A DNA stretch of 36,546 bases from Methanobacteriota archaeon (lineage in GTDB: Archaea; Thermoplasmatota; Thermoplasmata; RBG-16-68-12), in the NCBI GenBank assembly GCA_005878485.1, contig VBMG01000096.1, positions 1 through 36,546 of the forward strand, given 5' to 3'. How positions within the stretch are numbered: the stretch's first letter is position 1; the number at the start of each line of letters is the position of its first letter. Below are positions 16,042-36,546 of the stretch, piece by piece. The notes under the pieces are model-generated. The model was not told the DNA's origin. It did no database searches and was given only the letters and a program-made list of their open reading frames with translations. The translations under genes and the position numbers were made by a program.

Positions 16042-17493
16042 ATGGTATCCAAGACGGTCATCCAGGAGCAGATGGCGAAGCAGGAGTACAAATACGGCTT
16101 CGTCACCGACGTCGAGATGGAGACGGTCCCGAAGGGCCTGAACGAGGACGTCATCCGGCTCATCTCCGGCAAGAAAAACGAGCCCGAGTGGATGCTCGAC
16201 TGGCGACTCCGCGCCTACCGCCACTGGCTCACGATGAAGGAGCCGAAGTGGTCGAACGTCCGGTATCCGCCGATCAACTATCAGGACATCATCTACTACG
16301 CCGCGCCGAAGCCGAAGAAACCGGTCAAGAGCCTCGAGGACGTCGACCCGGAGATCCGCGCGTTGTACGCGAAGCTCGGGATCCCGCTCCAGGAGCAGGA
16401 GCGCCTCGCCGGCGTGGCCGTCGACGCCGTCCTGGACAGCGTCTCTGTCGCGACGACGTTCAAGGACCGACTTGCGGAGCTCGGGATCATCTTCTGCTCG
16501 TTCTCCGATGCGGTCCGGGAGCACCCGGACCTCGTCCGGAAGTACCTGGGCACCGTGGTCCCGTTCAACGACAACTTCTTCGCGGGCCTGAACAGCGCCG
16601 TGTTCAGCGACGGCTCCTTCGCGTACGTGCCACCGGGCGTCCGGTGCCCGATGGAACTGTCGACCTACTTCCGTATCAACGCGCAAGACACGGGCCAGTT
16701 CGAACGCACCCTGATCATCGCGGACGACGGTGCCTACGTCAGCTATCTCGAAGGCTGCACGGCCCCGATCCGCGACACGAACCAGCTGCATGCGGCGGTC
16801 GTCGAGCTGATCGCGCTCGACAACGCGGAGATCAAGTACTCGACGATCCAGAACTGGTACCCCGGCGATAAGCAGGGGAAAGGCGGCATCTACAACTTCG
16901 TCACGAAGCGCGGCAAGGCGCTCGGGGTGAATTCGAAGGTCTCTTGGACGCAGGTCGAGACGGGCTCCGCGATCACGTGGAAATATCCGAGCTGCATCCT
17001 CCAGGGCGACAACTCCCAGGGCGAGTTCTACTCCGTCGCCGTCGTGAACAACTACCAGCAGGCCGACACCGGCACGAAGATGCTGCATATCGGGAAGAAC
17101 ACCCGAAGCACGATCATCTCGAAAGGCATCTCCGCGGGCTACGGCCGGAACACGTACCGCGGCCGGGTGCATATCCACAAGGGCGCGACGGGCGCGCGGA
17201 ACTACTCGCAGTGCGACTCCCTCTTGCTCGGCTCGACGTGCGCGGCGTTCACGTTCCCGGACATCGTCGTCCAGGATCCGACCGCGCAGATGGAGCACGA
17301 GGCGTCGACCTCGAAGATCGGCGATGAGCAGCTGTTCTACTGCCAGACGCGCGGCATCACGCCCGAAGACGCGACGAACATGATCGTCAACGGCTTCTGC
17401 AAACAAGTCTTCTTGAAGCTCCCGATGGAGTTCGCGGTGGAAGCCCAGAAGCTGATCGGCGTGAGCCTGGCCCTCGAGGGCACGGTCGGCTGA
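16042..17493 (+). CDS. sufB: Fe-S cluster scaffold SufB
   Basis: Core scaffold of the SUF machine, acting with SufC and SufD to build [4Fe-4S] clusters in the cytosol. The 483-residue sequence is a canonical SufB: N-terminal [39 protein letters not shown], and E-H-E-A-S at 418-422 followed by [12 protein letters not shown]. It is the first gene of a nine-gene run and has a good Shine-Dalgarno (GGGAGG). Codon use and composition match the neighbours. Confidence 0.96.
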
Positions 17494-17522
17494 GCGCGTC
17501 CCGCTCCCGGGAGGAGATGGCG

Positions 17523-18293
17523 ATGCTCGAGATCAAGGGTCTGCACGTGAAGGTGGCCGGCAAGGAGATCCTGAAAGGGATCGACCTGTCGATCCAGCCG
17601 GGCGAGGTCCACGCGATCATGGGCCCGAACGGTAGCGGAAAGACGACGCTGGCCCAGGTCCTGGCCGGCCGCGTGACGTACGAGGTCACGGGGGGCACGG
17701 CCCGCTTCGAAGGGAAGGACCTGCTCGCGATGAAGCCGGAGGACCGGGCCCGCGAAGGCGTGTTCATGGCATTCCAGTATCCCGTCGAGATCCCGGGCGT
17801 GAGCAACGCCTACTTCCTGAAGGCCGCGCTGAACGCGATCCGGAAGTACCGCGGCCAGGACGAGATCGATGCGATGGACTTCGTAACCCTCGTCCAGGAC
17901 AAGGCGAAGCTCCTCGGCCTCGACGAGACGTTCATGAAGCGCGGCCTGAACGAAGGCTTCTCGGGCGGCGAGAAAAAGAAGAACGAGGTGTTCCAGATGG
18001 CGGTCCTCGAGCCGAAATTCTGCGTCCTCGACGAGACCGACTCCGGACTCGACATCGACGCCTTGCGGCTCGTGGCGAACGGCATCAACGCGATGCGCAG
18101 CCCGAAGCGGGCGATGCTCGTCGTCACGCACTACCAGCGTCTGCTCGACTACGTCGTGCCGGACGTCGTCCACGTCCTCGTCGACGGGAAGATCGTAAAG
18201 AGCGGGGATGCGGACCTCGCGCGCAACCTCGAGAAGCACGGATACGGCTGGATCCTCGAGGAGGCCCCGAGACCAGCGCCCGCGCGTCCGTGA
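17523..18293 (+). CDS. sufC: SufC ATPase
   Basis: ABC-type ATPase that drives conformational change in SufB/SufD. Walker A is G-P-N-G-S-G-K-T (34-41), the signature is F-S-G-G-E-K-K-K-N-E, and Walker B is C-V-L-D-E-T-D-S-G-L-D. That signature and Walker B variant are typical of SufC. The ATG at 17517 touches the Shine-Dalgarno GGGAGGAG (17509-17516), so I place the start at the ATG at 17523, which gives the usual M-L-E-I-K-G-L start and 6-base spacing. The 256 residues are full length. Its stop overlaps the next start (GTGA). Confidence 0.95.
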   Translation: MLEIKGLHVKVAGKEILKGIDLSIQPGEVHAIMGPNGSGKTTLAQVLAGRVTYEVTGGTARFEGKDLLAMKPEDRAREGVFMAFQYPVEIPGVSNAYFLKAALNAIRKYRGQDEIDAMDFVTLVQDKAKLLGLDETFMKRGLNEGFSGGEKKKNEVFQMAVLEPKFCVLDETDSGLDIDALRLVANGINAMRSPKRAMLVVTHYQRLLDYVVPDVVHVLVDGKIVKSGDADLARNLEKHGYGWILEEAPRPAPARP

Positions 18294-19648
18294 GGCCGGT
18301 GACGGACGTGGCGGTGGCCGTCGACGCGAAGCAGACGTATGTCGCGGAGTTCGCGTCGTCGGAAAAGGAACTCGGCGGGCCGAAATGGGTCCGCACGCTC
18401 CGCCAGAACGCGATCGCACGGTTCGAGTCCCTTGGGTTTCCGACGCAGAAGCACGAGGAATGGAAGTACACGAACCTCGCGCCGCTCCTTCGTGCTCCCT
18501 TCAAGCCCGCCATCTTGGCGCGTCCGGATGGGGTCGTCGCGGAGAAGCTTCAACCCTTCACCTTCGGTGTCCTGAAGACGAACCAGGTCGTCTTCGTGAA
18601 TGGGCGATACGCGCCCCGACTTTCGTACCTGAGATCCTTGCCGGAGGGCGTTCGGATCGGGTCGATGGCGGAGATGCTGCGTTCAGAGCCGAGGGCCCTT
18701 GAGAAGCATGTGGCTCGCTATGCGAGCTTCGAGGCCGATTCGTTCGTCGCCTTGAACACGGCGTTCTTCCAGGACGGCGCGTTCGTCGAGATTCCCAAGA
18801 ACACGGTCGTGGACGAACCGATCCATCTTCTCTTCCTCTCGGCGTCGAGGGACCTTCCCATCGTCGCCCACCCCCGGAACCTGATCCTCCTTGGAGCGAA
18901 CAGCCACGCGACCGTCATCGAGACGTACGCCGGCTGGGCGCCCGACGTGACGTTCACGAACGCGGCGACGGAGGTCGTCGTCGGACCGGCCGCCGTCCTC
19001 GAGCACTACAAGGTGCAGCGGGAGTCCGAGCGGGCGTTCCATTTCGGGACGATGACCGTCGACCAGGAGCGAGATTCCTCCGTCACGGCGCACTCGATGT
19101 CCTTCGGCAGCTCCCTGTCGAGGAACAGCGTGTCCACGATCTTCCGCGGGCAAGGCGGGAGCCTCACGCTGAACGGGATCTTCATGCCCCGGGAGACCCA
19201 ACAACACGACAACTACACGCGCATCGACCATGTGGCGCCCTCGTGCACGAGCGTCGAGCTGTATCGCGGCATCCTCGACGGCCGGTCGCGCGGCGTGTTC
19301 AACGGGAACATCTACGTCCGGAAGGACGCCCAGAAGACGGTCGCGCGGCAGACGAACAAGAACCTCCTCCTCTCGAAAGAGGCGTTCGTCGACAGCACGC
19401 CGGGCCTCGAGATTCTCGCGGACGACGTGAAGTGCAATCACGCGTCCACGATCGGCCAGCTCGACGATAACGCCGTGTTCTACCTGCGATCCCGCGGCAT
19501 CGACGAGGAGGCGGCGCGGAACATCCTGACCTACGCCTTCGTCGCGGATGTCGTGAACCAAGTTCGGGTCGCGCCGATTCGCATCAAACTCGATCAGTTG
19601 ATTCTCTCGCGGCTCCCGAAGGGAGCGGGACTCGGCGAGACCTTATGA
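18290..19648 (+). CDS. sufD: SufD
   Basis: Partner of SufB in the SufBC2D complex, implicated in iron acquisition. The N-terminal part has the K-H-E-E-W-K-Y-T-N-L motif of SufD. The C-terminal part has L-E-I-L-A-D-D-V-K-C-N-H-A-S-T-I-G-Q-L, including the histidine region known to be important in E. coli SufD. The product is 452 residues. It starts with GTG at 18290, overlapping the sufC stop by 4 bases. Archaea more often have only SufB and SufC, so a true SufD supports a bacterial-type suf set. Confidence 0.93.
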   Translation: MRPVTDVAVAVDAKQTYVAEFASSEKELGGPKWVRTLRQNAIARFESLGFPTQKHEEWKYTNLAPLLRAPFKPAILARPDGVVAEKLQPFTFGVLKTNQVVFVNGRYAPRLSYLRSLPEGVRIGSMAEMLRSEPRALEKHVARYASFEADSFVALNTAFFQDGAFVEIPKNTVVDEPIHLLFLSASRDLPIVAHPRNLILLGANSHATVIETYAGWAPDVTFTNAATEVVVGPAAVLEHYKVQRESERAFHFGTMTVDQERDSSVTAHSMSFGSSLSRNSVSTIFRGQGGSLTLNGIFMPRETQQHDNYTRIDHVAPSCTSVELYRGILDGRSRGVFNGNIYVRKDAQKTVARQTNKNLLLSKEAFVDSTPGLEILADDVKCNHASTIGQLDDNAVFYLRSRGIDEEAARNILTYAFVADVVNQVRVAPIRIKLDQLILSRLPKGAGLGETL

Positions 19649-19703
19649 TGAGCGAATCCGTTACAAGGGGGTCGGGATCCATCGCCCGCCGGGAGGCCTT
19701 CTG

Positions 19704-20153
19704 ATGGCCGACCTCCGTGAGCTCTACCAGGACACGATTCTGGACCACAGCAAGAAGCCCCGCAACTTCCGCGAGATCCCGGGCGCCACCGCGAAGGCCG
19801 TCGGGCACAACCCGCTTTGCGGCGATCGGGTGACCGTCTACCTGCGCCTCGACGCCGGGAACATCGCGGACATCGCGTTCATCGGCCAGGGCTGCGCGAT
19901 CTCGAAGGCGTCGGCTTCCCTGATGACGGACGCGGTGAAGGGCAAGTCGAAGTCCGAGGCGACCCGTCTGTTCGAGCGATTCCGTAAGATGGTTACGGGC
20001 CGTCCGGGGGATCCGATCGACGCGTCCCTCGGCAAGCTCGCGGTCCTCTCCGGCGTCTGCGAGTTCCCGGTCCGCGTGAAGTGCGCGAGCCTCCCGTGGC
20101 ACACGCTCGAGGCGGCGCTCGAGGCGAAGCAGGAGACCGTGTCCCTGGAGTGA
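19704..20153 (+). CDS. sufU: SufU/IscU-like protein 1
   Basis: Zinc-dependent sulfurtransferase partner of SufS, or an IscU-type scaffold. Three conserved cysteines are visible: N-P-L-C-G-D (C39), G-Q-G-C-A-I-S (about 63), and V-K-C-A-S-L-P-W-H-T-L near the end. The ~20-residue insertion between the second and third cysteines that marks SufU is present (F-R-K-M-V-T-G onwards), so this copy is SufU-like. GGGAGG precedes the ATG by about 9 bases. The 55-base gap after sufD is the largest in the operon. Confidence 0.92.
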   Translation: MADLRELYQDTILDHSKKPRNFREIPGATAKAVGHNPLCGDRVTVYLRLDAGNIADIAFIGQGCAISKASASLMTDAVKGKSKSEATRLFERFRKMVTGRPGDPIDASLGKLAVLSGVCEFPVRVKCASLPWHTLEAALEAKQETVSLE

Positions 20154-20155
20154 CG

Positions 20156-21487
20156 ATGACCGTCGCGGACCTCCCTCCGACTCCGTTGCGAGAGGATGCG
20201 GGACGCTTCGTGACGATTGGCAACGCCCCGACTGCGGAGCTCGTCCGCGACCTGTCCCGAAATCGAAACGAACCCGATTGGATGCTCCGACACCGGTTGC
20301 GGGCCCTGGAACGGCTCCGATCGGACGGCGTGCCGGCGTGGGCCGCCTTCCTGCGGGATGTGGACTTCGAGGGCATCGTAGGCGCGGAAGGGCCGCCGCA
20401 TTCGCCCGAGACGGCGAAGGATGGATCGAGTATCTTGCCGGGCCTCGGCGCGCTCGCCGAATCCGAGGCGGCGTACCGTTCCGTCCGAAGAGACCTCGAG
20501 TCCCGCGGCGTGCGCTTCTCCGGATTGGGGTCCGCGCTCGCATCGACTCCGAACCTCGTGAAACCGCACTTCGGCACCGCGATTCCCATGGACGACCATC
20601 CGTTCGCCGCCCTCAACGGGAGCCTTTGGACGGGCGGGTCCTTCGTCTACGTCCCGCCGGACGTGCACCTCGAGATTCCACTCCAGGCTGAGATCCGCGC
20701 GGACTACGAGAAGGTCGAGCCGTTCGAGCGCAACCTGATCGTCGCCGACGCCGGCGCCCAAATCACGTACATCGAGGGGTGCACGGCACCCGTGTACACG
20801 CCGGACCAGCTTCACGTGTCCGCGATCGAGGTCCTCGCGTTGCCTCGATCTCGCGTGCGGTACATCGCGCTCCAGAATTTCTCCCGAGAGGTCGACAACC
20901 TCGTGATGAAGCGCGCGCTCGTGCACGAAGGCGCGACGATCGAGTGGGTCGATGCGAACCTGGGCTCGCGCCGCACGTGGAAAGTGCCTCGCGCCGACCT
21001 GCTCGGTCCAGGGGCCGTCGCCGAATTCGTCGGAGTCGCCCTCGCGGGCAGACGACAGCACCAGGACGTCGGGGCGGAAGTCGTCCACCGCGCACCGCGA
21101 ACCCGCTCGACAATTGTGAACCGCGGCATCGTCCACACCGGAGGTCGCGCGACCCTCCGGTCGGGCGTCCACGTGGCTCCGCAGGCCCTGGGCGCTTCCG
21201 CGTCCGTCGAATGGTCGGCCCTCATGCTCGACGCCGACTCGCGAGCGGAGACCGTGCCCACGATCGAGCTCGACGAAGCGGACGCGGAGATTGTCCAGGC
21301 CGGAAGCATCCGCAAGGTGAGCGACGAGATGCTGTTCTACATGGCCAGCCGCGGCGTGACGCGCGACGAGGCCCTGCGGATGGTCGTCCTCGGGGCCGCG
21401 GACGCGGCGATGGCGCGCATCCCCGTCGAGTACGCGGTCGAAGTCGAGCGACTCATCGAGCTGGAGCTCGGGGGCGGCGTCGGATGA
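20156..21487 (+). CDS. Third SufB/SufD-family protein, divergent SufB-like
   Basis: 443 residues, starting at the ATG at 20156, two bases after the sufU stop; the longer open frame overlaps sufU and is rejected. Similarity to SufB is clear: N-E-P-D-W-M-L-R-H-R-L-R, G-G-S-F-V-Y-V-P-P-D-V, Y-I-E-G-C-T-A-P, and a C-terminal S-D-E-M-L-F-Y-M-A-S-R-G-V. The SufB block E-H-E-A-S is replaced by V-Q-A-G-S, and the S-Q-C-D-S region by V-E-W-S-A. It is therefore neither a normal SufB nor a SufD. It may replace one partner in an alternative complex or act in a specialised step. It is coupled to sufS by an ATGA junction. Confidence 0.85.
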   Translation: MTVADLPPTPLREDAGRFVTIGNAPTAELVRDLSRNRNEPDWMLRHRLRALERLRSDGVPAWAAFLRDVDFEGIVGAEGPPHSPETAKDGSSILPGLGALAESEAAYRSVRRDLESRGVRFSGLGSALASTPNLVKPHFGTAIPMDDHPFAALNGSLWTGGSFVYVPPDVHLEIPLQAEIRADYEKVEPFERNLIVADAGAQITYIEGCTAPVYTPDQLHVSAIEVLALPRSRVRYIALQNFSREVDNLVMKRALVHEGATIEWVDANLGSRRTWKVPRADLLGPGAVAEFVGVALAGRRQHQDVGAEVVHRAPRTRSTIVNRGIVHTGGRATLRSGVHVAPQALGASASVEWSALMLDADSRAETVPTIELDEADAEIVQAGSIRKVSDEMLFYMASRGVTRDEALRMVVLGAADAAMARIPVEYAVEVERLIELELGGGVG

Positions 21488-21522
21488 CCGCGTCACGAGA
21501 AAACTCAAGTAGGGAGGCGGTC

Positions 21523-22788
21523 ATGGCAAGAAAGGACCGCATGGCGAAACCGGCCAAGATGCTGTTGAACGTGCCCGCCATCCAGGCGGACTTCCCCATC
21601 CTCAAGCGGACGGTGCGGGACAAGCGGCTCGTGTACCTCGACAGTGCGGCGACGTCCCAGAAGCCGAAACAGGTTATCGAGGCCACGTCCGACTACTATT
21701 CGCGGTACAACGCGAACGTCCATCGCGCGATCTACGAGCTCGGCGAAGAGTCCACGCGGGAGTATGAAGGCGCGCGGGAGAAGGTCGCGGACTTCATCCA
21801 CGCGAAGGCGGCGAGCGAAATCGCGTTCACGAAGTCGACGACGGAATCGATCAACGTCATCGCATACGGCTACGGGCTCAAAGGCAAGATCCAGAAGGGC
21901 GACGAGATCCTCGGCACCGTGATGGAGCACCATTCGAATCATGTGCCCTGGCACTTCGTGAAGGACCACAAGGGCGCGGTCCTGAAGTACGTCGACGTGG
22001 CCGACGACGGCACCCTGAAGATGGAGCAGTACGACGACCTCCTCACCCGCCACACGAAGATCGTGACGGTGACCCTGTGCTCGAACGTCCTCGGGACGAT
22101 CAATCCGGTCAAGGAGATTGCGAAACGGGCCCATGAGGTCGGCGCGCTCTGCGTCGTCGATGCGGCCCAGGCGGCTCCCCACATGCCGGTCGACGTCCAG
22201 AGCCTCGACGCGGACTTCCTCGCGTTCAGCGGGCACAAGATGCTGGGGCCGACGGGGATCGGCGTGCTCTACGGCAAGGCGGAACTCCTCGAGGAAACGG
22301 AACCGCTCCTGGGCGGCGGCGAGATGATCCGCGAGGTGCACCTCGGCTGGGCCAAGTGGAACGACGTCCCGTACAAGTTCGAGGGCGGCACACCGAACAT
22401 CGCGGGCGCGATCGGCCTCGGCGTCGCGGTCGACTACCTCACGAAACTGGGGATGGACGCGGTCCGGGCCCACGAAATGGAGGTCACGCAGTACGCGCTC
22501 GAGAAGTTCGACCGCCTCAAGGGCGTTACCACGTACGGACCGAAGGATGTCAAGAGGCGCGCGGGCGTGGTGTCCTTCACGATCGAAGGCGCGCACCCGC
22601 ACGACATCGCCTCGATCTTGGACGTGGAGGGCATCTGTATCCGATCGGGCCACCACTGCGCTCAGCCGCTCATGGAACGGTTCGACCTCCCCGCGACGGC
22701 GCGGGCGTCGTTCTACATCTACAACGACCTGGACGATGTCGACGCGCTGATCGCCGGCATCAAGCGAGTCCAGGAGGTCTTTGCCTGA
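21523..22788 (+). CDS. sufS: Cysteine desulfurase SufS
   Basis: PLP-dependent enzyme that takes sulfur from cysteine as a persulfide for cluster assembly. A 421-residue class II desulfurase with the PLP lysine K239 in F-S-G-H-K-M-L-G-P-T, H-H-S-N-H in the substrate site, and the active cysteine C379 in R-S-G-H-H-C-A-Q-P-L. I chose the ATG at 21523, which has AGGGAGG 5 bases upstream. An in-frame ATG at 21484 overlaps the previous stop and would add 13 residues. The stop overlaps the next ATG by one base. The adjacent cysteine synthase could supply its substrate. Confidence 0.95.
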   Translation: MARKDRMAKPAKMLLNVPAIQADFPILKRTVRDKRLVYLDSAATSQKPKQVIEATSDYYSRYNANVHRAIYELGEESTREYEGAREKVADFIHAKAASEIAFTKSTTESINVIAYGYGLKGKIQKGDEILGTVMEHHSNHVPWHFVKDHKGAVLKYVDVADDGTLKMEQYDDLLTRHTKIVTVTLCSNVLGTINPVKEIAKRAHEVGALCVVDAAQAAPHMPVDVQSLDADFLAFSGHKMLGPTGIGVLYGKAELLEETEPLLGGGEMIREVHLGWAKWNDVPYKFEGGTPNIAGAIGLGVAVDYLTKLGMDAVRAHEMEVTQYALEKFDRLKGVTTYGPKDVKRRAGVVSFTIEGAHPHDIASILDVEGICIRSGHHCAQPLMERFDLPATARASFYIYNDLDDVDALIAGIKRVQEVFA

Positions 22789-23180
22789 TGGCGGTCTCCT
22801 ACGAGATGTACCAGGAGCAGATCCTGGACCATTACAAGCACCCTCGCAACAAAGGCTCCCTACCCAGCGCGACGAAGAACGCCCGGGACACGAACCCGCT
22901 GTGCGGCGACGAAGTCGTCCTCCATCTGAAGATCGACGGATCGGATCGCATTGCGGACGTGCGGTTCGAGGGCCAGGGGTGCGCGATCAGCCAGGCGAGC
23001 GCGTCGATGTTGACGACGATCGTGAAGGGGATGTCTCTGGGGGACGCGACCGCCCTGGACCGGGACGCGATTCTGAAGAAGCTCGGGATTCCGCTCAGCG
23101 CGGTTCGCCTGAAGTGCGCCCTGCTGTCTCTGCACGTTCTCAAAGTCGCGCTGGGGCCCAAGCCTGACGTCTCGAAGTGA
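22788..23180 (+). CDS. SufU/IscU-like protein 2, shorter form
   Basis: A second paralogue, 130 residues. It keeps the three cysteines (N-P-L-C-G-D, G-Q-G-C-A-I-S, R-L-K-C-A-L-L-S-L-H) but lacks most of the insertion seen in the first copy, so the region between the second and third cysteines is closer to IscU length. It starts at an ATG overlapping the sufS stop by one base. Two SufU-like proteins in one operon suggest a division of labour, for example zinc-dependent sulfur acceptor versus scaffold. That is inference. Confidence 0.9.
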   Translation: MAVSYEMYQEQILDHYKHPRNKGSLPSATKNARDTNPLCGDEVVLHLKIDGSDRIADVRFEGQGCAISQASASMLTTIVKGMSLGDATALDRDAILKKLGIPLSAVRLKCALLSLHVLKVALGPKPDVSK

Positions 23181-32938: not shown

Positions 32939-34078
32939 ATGGTCTCGGCCCCTCCGGCCCCACCGCCGTTCCGGGTCTCGCAACGCCTGCGGTACCGAGA
33001 GCTGCTCGGACTCGTCGCGGTCCAGTCGTTCGGAAATCAAATGGCGGGGAGCTTCTGGATCGTCTACCTCGTGAGCGAGCCGCAGGCCCTTGCCTTCGAC
33101 GTCGCGGCACTTCTCTGGGTCGTCGCCTATCTGACCGCGGCGGTCGTCGTGGTCGTGATGTCTCGCGGCCGGCCAATTCACGCGAGGTCGAGCATGACGC
33201 TCGCCTTGATGATCATGGCCTTCTGCCACTTCGCGTTCGCGGTCCTTCCCGCCTCCTGGATCGTGGTGGTGGGAGGCCTGGCGTTCGGTCTCTATCTCCC
33301 GCTGTTCTGGCTCCCCATGAATTGCCTCCTTGTCCGGGAGACGAGCCCAGCGAACCGAGCGGGGCGACTCGCCGCCGTGACGGCGACGTTCACGACGGTC
33401 GCAATCGCCGCGCCGATCCTCGGCGGCTTCCTGGCGAACGTCGTGGGATACCCCGTCGTGTTCGGACTTGGCGGCGTCATCGTGGCCAGCAACCTCCTGC
33501 TCATCCGTCGTCGGGTCGCGCCGAGCGAATCGTTCGCGTTCTCGATCGACTTGCGCCGGACGGCACCTCGGACCACCCTCGCATTTTCCGGGCAAGGCGG
33601 CGTCGACGGCCTGTTGTCCGCCGCCACGCCTCTCGGTTCGTTCCTCTTCACGACGAATTCGCTCGCGCTCGGGCTCCTGTTCGCGCTCTTCTCTTTGGCG
33701 GCTGGCATCGCCGCGCTCCTCCTCGGGCGTGCCTCGGATCGCGTGCGAACCCGCGCGCCCTTCTTGCTGTTGGGCCCGATCCTCTCGGTGCCCGCCTGCA
33801 TCCTCGCGTTCGGGGTCCGCGATCTCCGAGCCTTCGCGTTCGCGGTCGGGTGGCTCTCGATGACCTCCGCGGTCGCGCCCTCGTTCATCTTCACGATCCT
33901 CGTCGACCGTACGGAGGACTCGATTCCCACGGTGACCGCGACGCGGGAATTGCTGTTGAATACGAGCCGCACCCTGGCGCTCGTGGCCGGCCTCGTCGTG
34001 CTCGCCCTCGGCGGTGACGTGTACGCGCTCTACGTCCTCGTTGGAGGCGTCATCCTGCTCGAAGCACTCGCGAAGTGA
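32939..34078 (+). CDS. MFS-family transporter
   Basis: 379 residues with about 11-12 hydrophobic segments, arranged as two halves around a polar central loop near residue 190-200. The pattern Y-L-P-L-F-W-L-P-M-N in helix 4 and the loop A-S-D-R-V-R-T-R-A-P after helix 8 fit the major facilitator superfamily (equivalent to the G-x-L-S-D-R-x-G-R-R loop). The substrate is unknown. A weak GAGGCGG lies before the ATG. It sits 134 bases after the trehalose gene; no strong promoter is visible between them. Confidence 0.78.
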   Translation: MVSAPPAPPPFRVSQRLRYRELLGLVAVQSFGNQMAGSFWIVYLVSEPQALAFDVAALLWVVAYLTAAVVVVVMSRGRPIHARSSMTLALMIMAFCHFAFAVLPASWIVVVGGLAFGLYLPLFWLPMNCLLVRETSPANRAGRLAAVTATFTTVAIAAPILGGFLANVVGYPVVFGLGGVIVASNLLLIRRRVAPSESFAFSIDLRRTAPRTTLAFSGQGGVDGLLSAATPLGSFLFTTNSLALGLLFALFSLAAGIAALLLGRASDRVRTRAPFLLLGPILSVPACILAFGVRDLRAFAFAVGWLSMTSAVAPSFIFTILVDRTEDSIPTVTATRELLLNTSRTLALVAGLVVLALGGDVYALYVLVGGVILLEALAK

Positions 34079-34123: not shown

Positions 34124-35164
34124 GTGGGAACCGCCTCGGAAGTCCGGATCACGAAGCCGCTCCACCTCTCCCCGAGCGACCTCTCGGAGCTTATTGTGAG
34201 CATCGGCGGCGTCAAGTTCTGGATTGTCTCTGTGGTGCCCCTGTACGTCGGCTGGGTGCTCGCTCAGGCCGCGACGGCGCGCCATCTGTTCATCGATGAC
34301 CTTCGCGTCGTGATCGGCATCATCGTCGTCGGTCCCTTGCTCGGGACGTTCACGCTCCTGCTCAACGTGTACTTCGACATGGAGACGACGGACCGCGTGA
34401 ACCCGCGAAAGAAGTACGTCCAGGTCGTCGAGGAGCTGATCGGCGAGGGCCTCATGGAGCGGGACACGCTCCTCCTGGCCGCGTTCGGATTTGCCGCGAT
34501 GGCCGTCGTCATCGCCGCGTACGTTTCCGGGACCCTCGTGCGGTACGGTGCCAGCGAGGCCATCGGCCCGCTCACGGCGATCGTCGGGACGCAAGGGTTC
34601 CTCCTCCTCACGGTCCTGATGATCCTCCTGTCGTTCGCGTACTCAATCCCGCGCATCCATTGGAAGGGCGTCGCGGGGATGGACCTCGTCACGAACATGG
34701 TCGGCTTCGGCGTCCTCTGTCCCCTGTGCGGCTGGTCCCTGATGCGGCCGATCGAGGCCGCACCGTGGTGGTACATCGGGACGATCGCCCTCTTCCTCGG
34801 AGCACTGTATGCGCCGACGACCGCCTCGGACTACGAGGCAGACCGCGCGTTCGGGATCCGCACAATGGCGGTCCGGCTCGGCGTGGGCCGGACCCTGCTC
34901 GTCGGGTTTGGCCTCCAGTTCCTGAGCGTCGCGTCCCTCATCCTCGGGTGGAGCCTCCGATGGTTCCCGTTCGACGGACCCGCGTACGCGGCCCTCGGCG
35001 AACTGTGGCCGTTCCTCGCCTTGCAAGTCTTGTTCTACGCCGTGTTCATCCGACGCGCGACCGTCGGCCGCATCTGGGCTCTCCTCCTGTTCCTCTCGAT
35101 CCTGCAAGGACTCGGCGTGCTCCTCATGCTCTGGCGGTTCGTCGGCGGGCGCACTTTGCTGTAA
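34124..35164 (+). CDS. UbiA-family prenyltransferase
   Basis: Membrane enzyme that joins an isoprenoid diphosphate to an acceptor, for example in lipid or quinone synthesis. 346 residues with about nine hydrophobic segments and both aspartate-rich motifs: N81-x3-D85-x4-D90 and D236-x3-D240, the latter followed by R-A-F-G-I-R-T. A Y-S-I-P-R segment precedes the second half, as in archaeal and chlorophyll-synthase-like members. The GTG at 34124 is the first start in frame and no strong Shine-Dalgarno is visible, so the start could be slightly later. The acceptor cannot be told from the sequence. Confidence 0.87.
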   Translation: MGTASEVRITKPLHLSPSDLSELIVSIGGVKFWIVSVVPLYVGWVLAQAATARHLFIDDLRVVIGIIVVGPLLGTFTLLLNVYFDMETTDRVNPRKKYVQVVEELIGEGLMERDTLLLAAFGFAAMAVVIAAYVSGTLVRYGASEAIGPLTAIVGTQGFLLLTVLMILLSFAYSIPRIHWKGVAGMDLVTNMVGFGVLCPLCGWSLMRPIEAAPWWYIGTIALFLGALYAPTTASDYEADRAFGIRTMAVRLGVGRTLLVGFGLQFLSVASLILGWSLRWFPFDGPAYAALGELWPFLALQVLFYAVFIRRATVGRIWALLLFLSILQGLGVLLMLWRFVGGRTLL

Positions 35165-35243: not shown

Positions 35244-36047
35244 ATGGCGCAGGCGACCGGCAGGCTCGAGAACGGCTCGCCATGGGGTGCGAAAACGGCC
35301 GGTGAATCGAAGCGTTGGACGCGGCGCGATTGGCTCAAAGCCAGCGCGATGGCCGGTGCCTCGGCCGGTGCGGGCACGTTGGTCGGGCTCGCTCTGTATC
35401 CGACCCTCTTCGGTACCCCCGCACCGCCCAGGACGGTCGCGCGCGAGTCGTTGGTGTACACGAACCCCGCGAATCTCGACGTTTGGTGGAAGGGCCTCGT
35501 GAACCGCGAGGTTTCGGTCACGGACTTCCAGGAGTGGCAGGGAGCTTCTGCCTTGTGGCAAGGCATTTTCCAAGATGCGACGTGGGTGGAAGGGACCGGC
35601 CTTCCGGTCTTGGTGATCCGGGTGAAGCGCGACACCGCGAACTTTCAAGCGCCCAGCGATGTAAGCGTGCCGAGCGGCTTCTCGCTGTACTACGACGACC
35701 CGGGGCGAGACCTCCGAATCGTGGTCGTCTTTGACCGGTCCACGTACTTGTGCTGCTATCCCGGCTGGCACCTCGTCACGAACCCGCCGCCGTTACGGGA
35801 CTACATCGCGTACTCGCCAACCTACGAGCTGTACGGCCAAGACCCCATCTACGACATCTGTCACGGCGGCCAATGGGATCCCATGATTTTGGAATGGGGA
35901 ACGAATTCTCGGAACAACACCGCGTACGTCGGCGCCCGCATGGTCCACGGTCCCGGCTTTGGCCCGCTCCCCGTCGTCTCCGTCCGCGCGGATGGCGACC
36001 TGGTCGTGGGCGGAATGATCGATCCGCGCTGGTACCAGTATTGCTAG
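35244..36047 (+). CDS. TAT-exported Rieske-like protein with non-canonical ligand boxes
   Basis: 267 residues. The twin-arginine signal T-R-R-D-W-L-K (26-32), followed by a hydrophobic stretch to about 52, indicates folded export with a membrane-anchored N-terminus, as in Rieske subunits of bc1-type complexes. The later part has two boxes resembling Rieske boxes: C-C-Y-P-G-W-H at 170-176 and I-C-H-G-G-Q-W-D-P at 205-213. Canonical boxes are C-x-H-x-G-C and C-P-x-H-G. Here the first histidine position is tyrosine, its disulfide cysteine is tryptophan, and the second-box ligand cysteine is aspartate. A normal [2Fe-2S] Rieske cluster is therefore unlikely without different ligation. The last residue is cysteine. 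TCTAAGTT at 35225-35232 is a possible TATA box. Confidence 0.7.
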   Translation: MAQATGRLENGSPWGAKTAGESKRWTRRDWLKASAMAGASAGAGTLVGLALYPTLFGTPAPPRTVARESLVYTNPANLDVWWKGLVNREVSVTDFQEWQGASALWQGIFQDATWVEGTGLPVLVIRVKRDTANFQAPSDVSVPSGFSLYYDDPGRDLRIVVVFDRSTYLCCYPGWHLVTNPPPLRDYIAYSPTYELYGQDPIYDICHGGQWDPMILEWGTNSRNNTAYVGARMVHGPGFGPLPVVSVRADGDLVVGGMIDPRWYQYC

Positions 36048-36372: not shown

Positions 36373-36546
36373 ACTCCGGTTGATCCTGCCGGCGGGCACC
36401 GCTATGGGAGTTCGCTTAAGACATGCGAGTCGAGAGGTGCAAGACCTCGGCGGACGGCTCAGTAACACGCGGATAATCTGCCCTCAGGTGGGGAATACTC
36501 TCGGGAAACTGAGGCTAATGCCCCATAGATCTGGGATGCTGGAACG
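36373..36546 (+). rRNA. 16S ribosomal RNA, 5' end only
   Basis: Begins ACTCCGGTTGATCCTGCCGG, the near-universal archaeal 16S 5' end. It continues with ACATGCGAGTCGAGAGG, then CGGCGGACGGCTCAGTAACACG, and GGGAAACTGAGGCTAATGCC. The gene runs off the right edge after about 174 bases. Whether 23S follows cannot be seen. Confidence 0.97.

Follow-up and report, generated by a model that had tools for sequence, protein, structure and literature searches.

The locus lies at the end of the window, by which we mean the whole analysed stretch of 36,546 nucleotides (contig VBMG01000096.1 of assembly GCA_005878485.1). Along the forward strand, an MFS transporter gene (32939..34078; PF07690, 53.9 bits) is followed by a UbiA-family prenyltransferase gene (34124..35164; PF01040, 39.2 bits), an intact open reading frame for a degenerate Rieske-family protein of 267 amino acids (35244..36047) and the start of an archaeal 16S rRNA gene (36373..36546; Rfam RF01959, 131.7 bits), which is cut by the contig end. 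The neighbours of the Rieske-family gene are the UbiA gene and the 16S rRNA gene, and cytochrome b is not beside it. The product was assigned from the open reading frame list, its match to NCBIfam TIGR01409, its family matches and a profile match to Rieske proteins. The initial annotation had described an exported protein with a Tat signal, which was borne out by a twin-arginine signal at residues 25-49 (TIGR01409, 21.3 bits, cut-off 16.7). The signal and N-terminal anchor region spans residues 21-49 (35304..35390, forward strand), and its arginines R27 and R28 are invariant across the 31 aligned relatives that keep all cluster ligands (hereafter canonical) and are retained in the window protein. 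Open reading frames with N-termini resembling, by eye, SUF-type Fe-S assembly proteins (SufB/C/D, SufS, SufU-like) were also noticed at 16042-23180 of the window.

The window genome (G000) is a draft of 230 contigs, 84% complete, and encodes a copper membrane monooxygenase (CuMMO; PF02461, 49.1 bits, cut-off 27.5). Three named relatives are the 'Euryarchaeota archaeon' isolates EA_12, EA_6 and EA_23. The host is probably a CuMMO-bearing soil archaeon of Ca. Angelarchaeales, an order name chosen because the CuMMO gene is combined with these relatives; the accessible passages of Diamond et al. 2022 (PMC9038741) describe it as an order of Thermoplasmata.

With the own genome counted, matches to the family were found in 21/22 family genomes, 24/37 order genomes and 24/400 class genomes; among the other family genomes they occur in 20 of 21, the match in G013 being a fragment only. 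The order search returned 37 matches, of which 33 were aligned and one (G031:C19, canonical) was read separately, while the remaining three (G013:C126, G008:C100 and G016:C28:2401, a short piece) were excluded because they fail to span both boxes. Two of the 33 rows are partial (G017_B and G016_A), and alignment A2 comprises 28 rows, without G007_A, G020_A, G017_B, G016_A and G015_x. For the canonical Rieske gene of G016 there are two separate matches, at G016:C28:2401-3220, probably because of a frameshift in the gene or the assembly.

Pfam and NCBIfam scans of the window protein gave no Rieske match, and the Pfam Rieske model matched 3/28 family members at E<=1. Because the family is too divergent for these models, we turned to profile-profile comparison. 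Aligned by hhalign to four Rieske proteins from other class genomes, a profile of 26 canonical relatives (A3) reached 97.0% with a pairwise E of 1e-10, and a profile of the window protein plus three others (A1) reached 95.4% and 1.7e-8. The four comparison proteins score over the PF00355 cut-off and are stop-to-stop frames with C-Q-H-L-G-C and C-x-C-H boxes. A phmmer search of the PDB with the window protein returned titin alone (E 0.66); with the family profile, Rieske proteins made up 13 of the 16 listed matches, including the best six, with a best E of 0.013 and none reaching 0.001. PF00355 was found at four other places in the own genome, none of which is the window gene or its canonical paralogue. 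An AlphaFold2 model of the window protein built from 4 sequences has a mean pLDDT of 35, too low for use, so that the fold and ligand geometry of the protein rest on alignment.

Canonical boxes, C-x-H-x-C-C and C-x-C-H with a Tyr four residues past the His, were found in 32 of 34 proteins (31 of the 33 aligned). Positions C166/H168/C171/C204/C206/H207/Y211 are kept in 31/31 aligned canonical relatives and, read by eye, in G031:C19 as the 32nd. In contrast, these positions read S/Y/C/D/C/H/W in the window protein, whose box 1 is S166-T-Y168-L-C170-C171 (35739..35756, forward strand) and whose box 2 is D204-I-C206-H207-G-G209-Q-W211-D (35853..35879, forward strand). Substitutions have removed three of the four [2Fe-2S] ligands (Cys166→Ser, His168→Tyr and Cys204→Asp): the C-x-H ligand pair of box 1 is absent (Ser166, Tyr168), and that of box 2, C-x-x-H, is reduced to His207, the sole surviving ligand, with Asp204 in place of the Cys. 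All ligands are kept in 32/33 other matches covering both boxes, and the exception, G011, reads S/H/C/D/C/H/W (S-T-H-L-C-C and D-V-C-H-G-G-Q-W), with the identical Cys→Ser and Cys→Asp changes and both His kept. The Tyr at position 211, which according to the accessible passages of Degli Esposti et al. 2023 (PMC10715153) contacts the cluster, is Trp in both proteins. At the two box-2 positions where the window protein has Gly209 and Trp211, canonical relatives have Ser in 28/31 and Tyr in 31/31. The Ser is presumably also a cluster contact.

The strings C-C-Y-P-G-W-H and I-C-H-G-G-Q-W-D-P, on which the initial annotation had based its reading of the boxes, are present in the product, and its statement that the box-1 ligand His and the box-2 ligand Cys are absent agrees with the alignment, in which Tyr168 and Asp204 occupy these places. 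The register it gave for box 1, with C170/C171 as the ligand Cys, was wrong. The profile-profile alignment with the four Rieske proteins pairs C171 with the closing Cys of C-Q-H-L-G-C, and D204 with the Cys that opens C-x-C-H. As C171 takes the closing place of the C-x-H-x-G-C motif, the ligand Cys of box 1 has been lost as well (Ser166), which brings the missing ligands to three of four. C206 and H207, said to remain, are both present, and H207 is the surviving ligand, but C206 is a disulfide-type Cys. Together, Cys171 and Cys206 align with C-x-H-L-G-C and C-x-C-H and constitute the disulfide-type pair of the window protein, in which a bond is predicted. Canonical boxes elsewhere in homologues had been named as what would speak against replaced ligands; they lie at exactly these positions, and the claim stood. 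The suggestion that the cluster ligands are replaced and that there may be no cluster is supported beyond its original strength.

In the midpoint-rooted tree of the 33 rows, six other-genus rows split from 27 same-genus rows at 97/100. Rows from the kind of locus seen in the window, which we call locus B, form two groups, B1 (4 rows, 100/99) and B2 (9 rows, 96/98), and the remaining rows form several separate branches, mostly copies from the cytochrome b operon, with the locus examined for all but two. The window and G011 proteins make up a 100/99 clade, one of three B2 branches, the other 7 B2 rows being canonical; this degenerate clade has two members among the 400 class genomes searched. 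Judged by this placement, the window protein is a B2 paralogue of the complex-III-type Rieske protein found in this group of archaea. Loss of both Cys ligands and the Tyr is, in the alignment, common to the window and G011 proteins, and loss of the His ligand is found in the window protein only. Parsimony suggests a single loss of both Cys and the Tyr in the ancestor shared by the two proteins, and a later loss of His168 in the line of the window protein.

Locus B typically runs from a trehalose-phosphate synthase-like gene (identified by eye) through MFS and UbiA genes and one or more Rieske copies to the 16S rRNA gene, with variations. The 16S rRNA gene follows the Rieske gene in 7/8 locus-B loci scanned, and in the eighth, G011, about 400 bases remain past the gene. 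The MFS and UbiA genes adjoin several, not all, locus-B Rieske genes. UbiA was considered as an obligatory partner and rejected, for the gene calls of G020, G019 and G021 have no UbiA beside the locus-B Rieske gene. In G009, G010 and G016, a protein of about 675 amino acids (family F22; L035, L036, L045, also L053 and L054) is encoded on the opposite strand between MFS and UbiA. The number of Rieske copies at locus B varies between genomes. A B1 gene lies 12 nt upstream of the B2 gene in G011 and G007, and it is the degenerate B2 gene that starts 12 nt after the canonical B1 gene in G011; no canonical B1 tandem partner was found in the window genome, which has 2 family matches in total at 84% completeness. 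In G021, a canonical B2 Rieske gene stands directly before cytochrome b genes (L052, G021:C178, 5702-7950).

The initial annotation had also raised whether cytochrome b genes exist in the genome. The own genome, 84% complete, yielded one cytochrome b, on a contig other than that of the window gene and adjoined by a canonical Rieske paralogue. This operon (L044, G000:C1, 228-5704) encodes a blue-copper protein, a DUF7318 protein, the canonical Rieske protein, the cytochrome b N-part, a cytochrome b C-part joined to a ferredoxin-like 4Fe-4S dicluster domain, a CCG-domain protein and one more 4Fe-4S protein. The N-part has the expected His pairs, which we take to be the heme ligands of cytochrome b. 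Further matches to cytochrome b, besides the operon copy, were seen in two relatives (G018:C38, G018:C255 and G019:C11). In G011, no cytochrome b was found in a genome that is 85% complete, and a complex-III partner therefore cannot be assumed there.

Changes in the degenerate proteins concentrate at the cluster site. There are 21 invariant columns in the 31 canonical rows; the window protein differs at 4 of them (ligands 166, 168 and 204 and Tyr211) and G011 at 3, which it shares with the window, all being cluster positions, whereas the other 17/17 are kept in both. The hypergeometric probability is 8e-4 for the window protein and 0.0075 for G011, with five cluster columns (four ligands and the Tyr) that were named after looking and values that are not independent. 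In the same-genus set of 25 canonical rows, with 39 invariant columns, the window protein differs at 5 and G011 at 6, the non-cluster changes being V104L in the window protein and T73L, D164N and G174D in G011. When the members of five canonical pairs were each held out as controls, 0-2 of 40-42 columns differed per member, and never at a cluster position. D164N and G174D are close to box 1, and some loosening around the cluster site, near box 1 in G011, is possible. The pattern D-x-C-H-G-x-Q-x-[DE]-P matched 2/400 class genomes, at exactly the window and G011 genes, and its weight lies in the place rather than the number of matches because the backwards control pattern also matched 2/400; in the window it has one match, compared with none in 100 shuffles.

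The window and G011 proteins share 58% identity, with dN 0.35, dS 1.48 and a dN/dS of about 0.24, the dS being near saturation. If the loss was indeed single and ancestral, these values measure selection on a protein that already lacked its cluster ligands. Canonical B2 pairs gave dN/dS of 0.37/1.30 and 0.26/0.95, similar to the window-G011 pair, and 0.15/1.25, which is lower. Tip depths of the degenerate pair are 0.68 and 0.78, compared with 0.43-0.68 for the 7 canonical B2 members. From two sequences with dS near saturation, the window protein looks to be under purifying selection, constrained rather than decaying.

These data bear on several explanations of the altered site. That it is a sequencing or assembly artefact might be suspected in a draft of many contigs, but Cys204→Asp requires two base changes (TGY→GAC), the same two Cys replacements recur in a second genome at the protein identity given above, and the canonical paralogue lies on another contig; we regard an artefact as hardly credible. 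A redundant Rieske copy, relaxed and on its way to a pseudogene, would fit a genome that has a canonical Rieske gene, the variable copy number at locus B, tip depths at or above the top of the clade, and 5 and 6 changed columns in the same-genus set against 0-2 in the controls. However, both genes are open frames without internal stops, and the gene is not read as a pseudogene because of the dN/dS, like that of two canonical B2 pairs, and the complete retention of non-cluster invariant columns. We consider decay quite unlikely.

Other explanations keep an inorganic centre in the protein. An iron-sulfur cluster might still be held by shifted or mixed ligation, through C170/C171/C206/H207 or through Ser, Asp and Tyr oxygen ligands, as there are three Cys and two His in or near the boxes and O-ligated clusters are chemically possible. 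The initial annotation had proposed such ligation by C170/C171, H176, C206 and H207, which found no support: C170, C171 and C206 cannot be counted as replacement ligands because they are invariant (31/31) in relatives with all four normal ligands, H176 is His in 27, Gln in 3 and Arg in 1 of the 31 aligned canonical relatives, and the cluster-contacting Tyr has changed too. This arrangement is highly improbable. The main alternative to a cluster-less protein is a new metal site, in which Asp204, His207, Ser166 and Tyr168 (His168 in G011), placed at the positions of the two cluster irons, would bind one Fe(III), Zn or Cu ion for a new redox, metal-binding or catalytic function. It is consistent with the same Cys204→Asp and Cys166→Ser changes in both genomes, which offer possible O-ligands, with both His kept in G011, which could still bind metal, with the constraint on the rest of the protein, and with the presence in the genome of a copper monooxygenase gene and, in the canonical Rieske operon, of a blue-copper gene. 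Yet residue 168 is unlike in the two members (Tyr and His), and Trp211 and Gly209 have removed polar contacts, so that we consider a new metal site unlikely.

A [2Fe-2S] cluster held by S/Y/D/H instead of C/H/C/H is very unlikely, and we strongly infer its absence from the window protein. Our preferred reading, to which we give a probability of roughly 55%, is that the gene encodes a cluster-less, non-redox ('blind') paralogue of the Rieske protein whose role is structural or regulatory, stabilising or limiting a respiratory membrane complex. The protein would be exported folded by Tat, with its N-terminal helix staying as an anchor and its Rieske fold held by a Cys171-Cys206 disulfide. Lacking the [2Fe-2S] cluster, it would take no electron from quinol, and it could sit where a Rieske protein docks, on the cytochrome b complex or on a different membrane complex of respiration, and there stabilise the complex or limit electron flow. 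A non-redox subunit is favoured because the parts that remain, namely the Tat signal, Cys171/Cys206 and the invariant residues, are those needed for folded export and docking. Our choice of partner and role is a guess that draws on the gene arrangement in G021, the G011 tandem and the precedent of Acidocella. A bolder and quite improbable version is a re-purposed archaeal Rieske fold, in which conserved Ser/Asp and His (with Tyr or His) at the places of the irons would bind a single metal ion, or in which the blind protein and a canonical Rieske neighbour would form a mixed dimer that switches off one half of a cytochrome b complex. NirD, the small subunit of assimilatory nitrite reductase, also has a Rieske fold without a cluster; unlike the window protein, it is a cytosolic enzyme subunit without a Tat signal.

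Loss of cluster ligands in a Rieske protein is already known from Acidocella, and the archaeal paralogue is what is new. The accessible passages of Degli Esposti et al. 2023 (PMC10715153) describe a 'deranged' Rieske ISP of Acidocella without three or four ligands but with the Cys pair kept, and propose that the deranged complex is retained because it helps structurally to stabilise Complex I. Compared with that description rather than by sequence alignment, the window protein is alike in having lost three ligands, in keeping Cys171/Cys206 and in being retained as a gene. However, the Acidocella protein, as described there, serves as ISP in a bc1 complex, and the cytochrome b of that complex is deranged too, whereas the window protein is an additional archaeal paralogue whose genome also encodes a canonical Rieske protein next to a cytochrome b with the expected His pairs, and its G011 counterpart has a canonical tandem partner.

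The complex-III Rieske protein of Ca. Angelarchaeales (PMC9038741) belongs to the same family, as far as gene context shows. In the accessible passages a blue-copper gene stands upstream of the Rieske gene in 23/30 loci, with hdrD-like and rnfB-like genes near the complex (Diamond et al. 2022), and the canonical paralogue of the own genome, with a blue-copper gene upstream and cytochrome b immediately after it, resembles these loci. That paralogue retains its four ligands and is encoded at another locus than the window gene; a ligand-less copy is not mentioned in the same passages. Among the matches listed from the open-access literature, no ligand-less archaeal Rieske paralogue was found.

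The window protein looks like a second, independent case of a complex-III-type Rieske protein that lost its cluster ligands with the rest conserved; here the loss affects an additional copy, and a canonical Rieske protein is encoded in the same genome. Such a protein would set apart what the Rieske subunit does for structure from what it does in electron transfer. Rieske genes in these genomes should have their ligands checked before they are counted as electron carriers.
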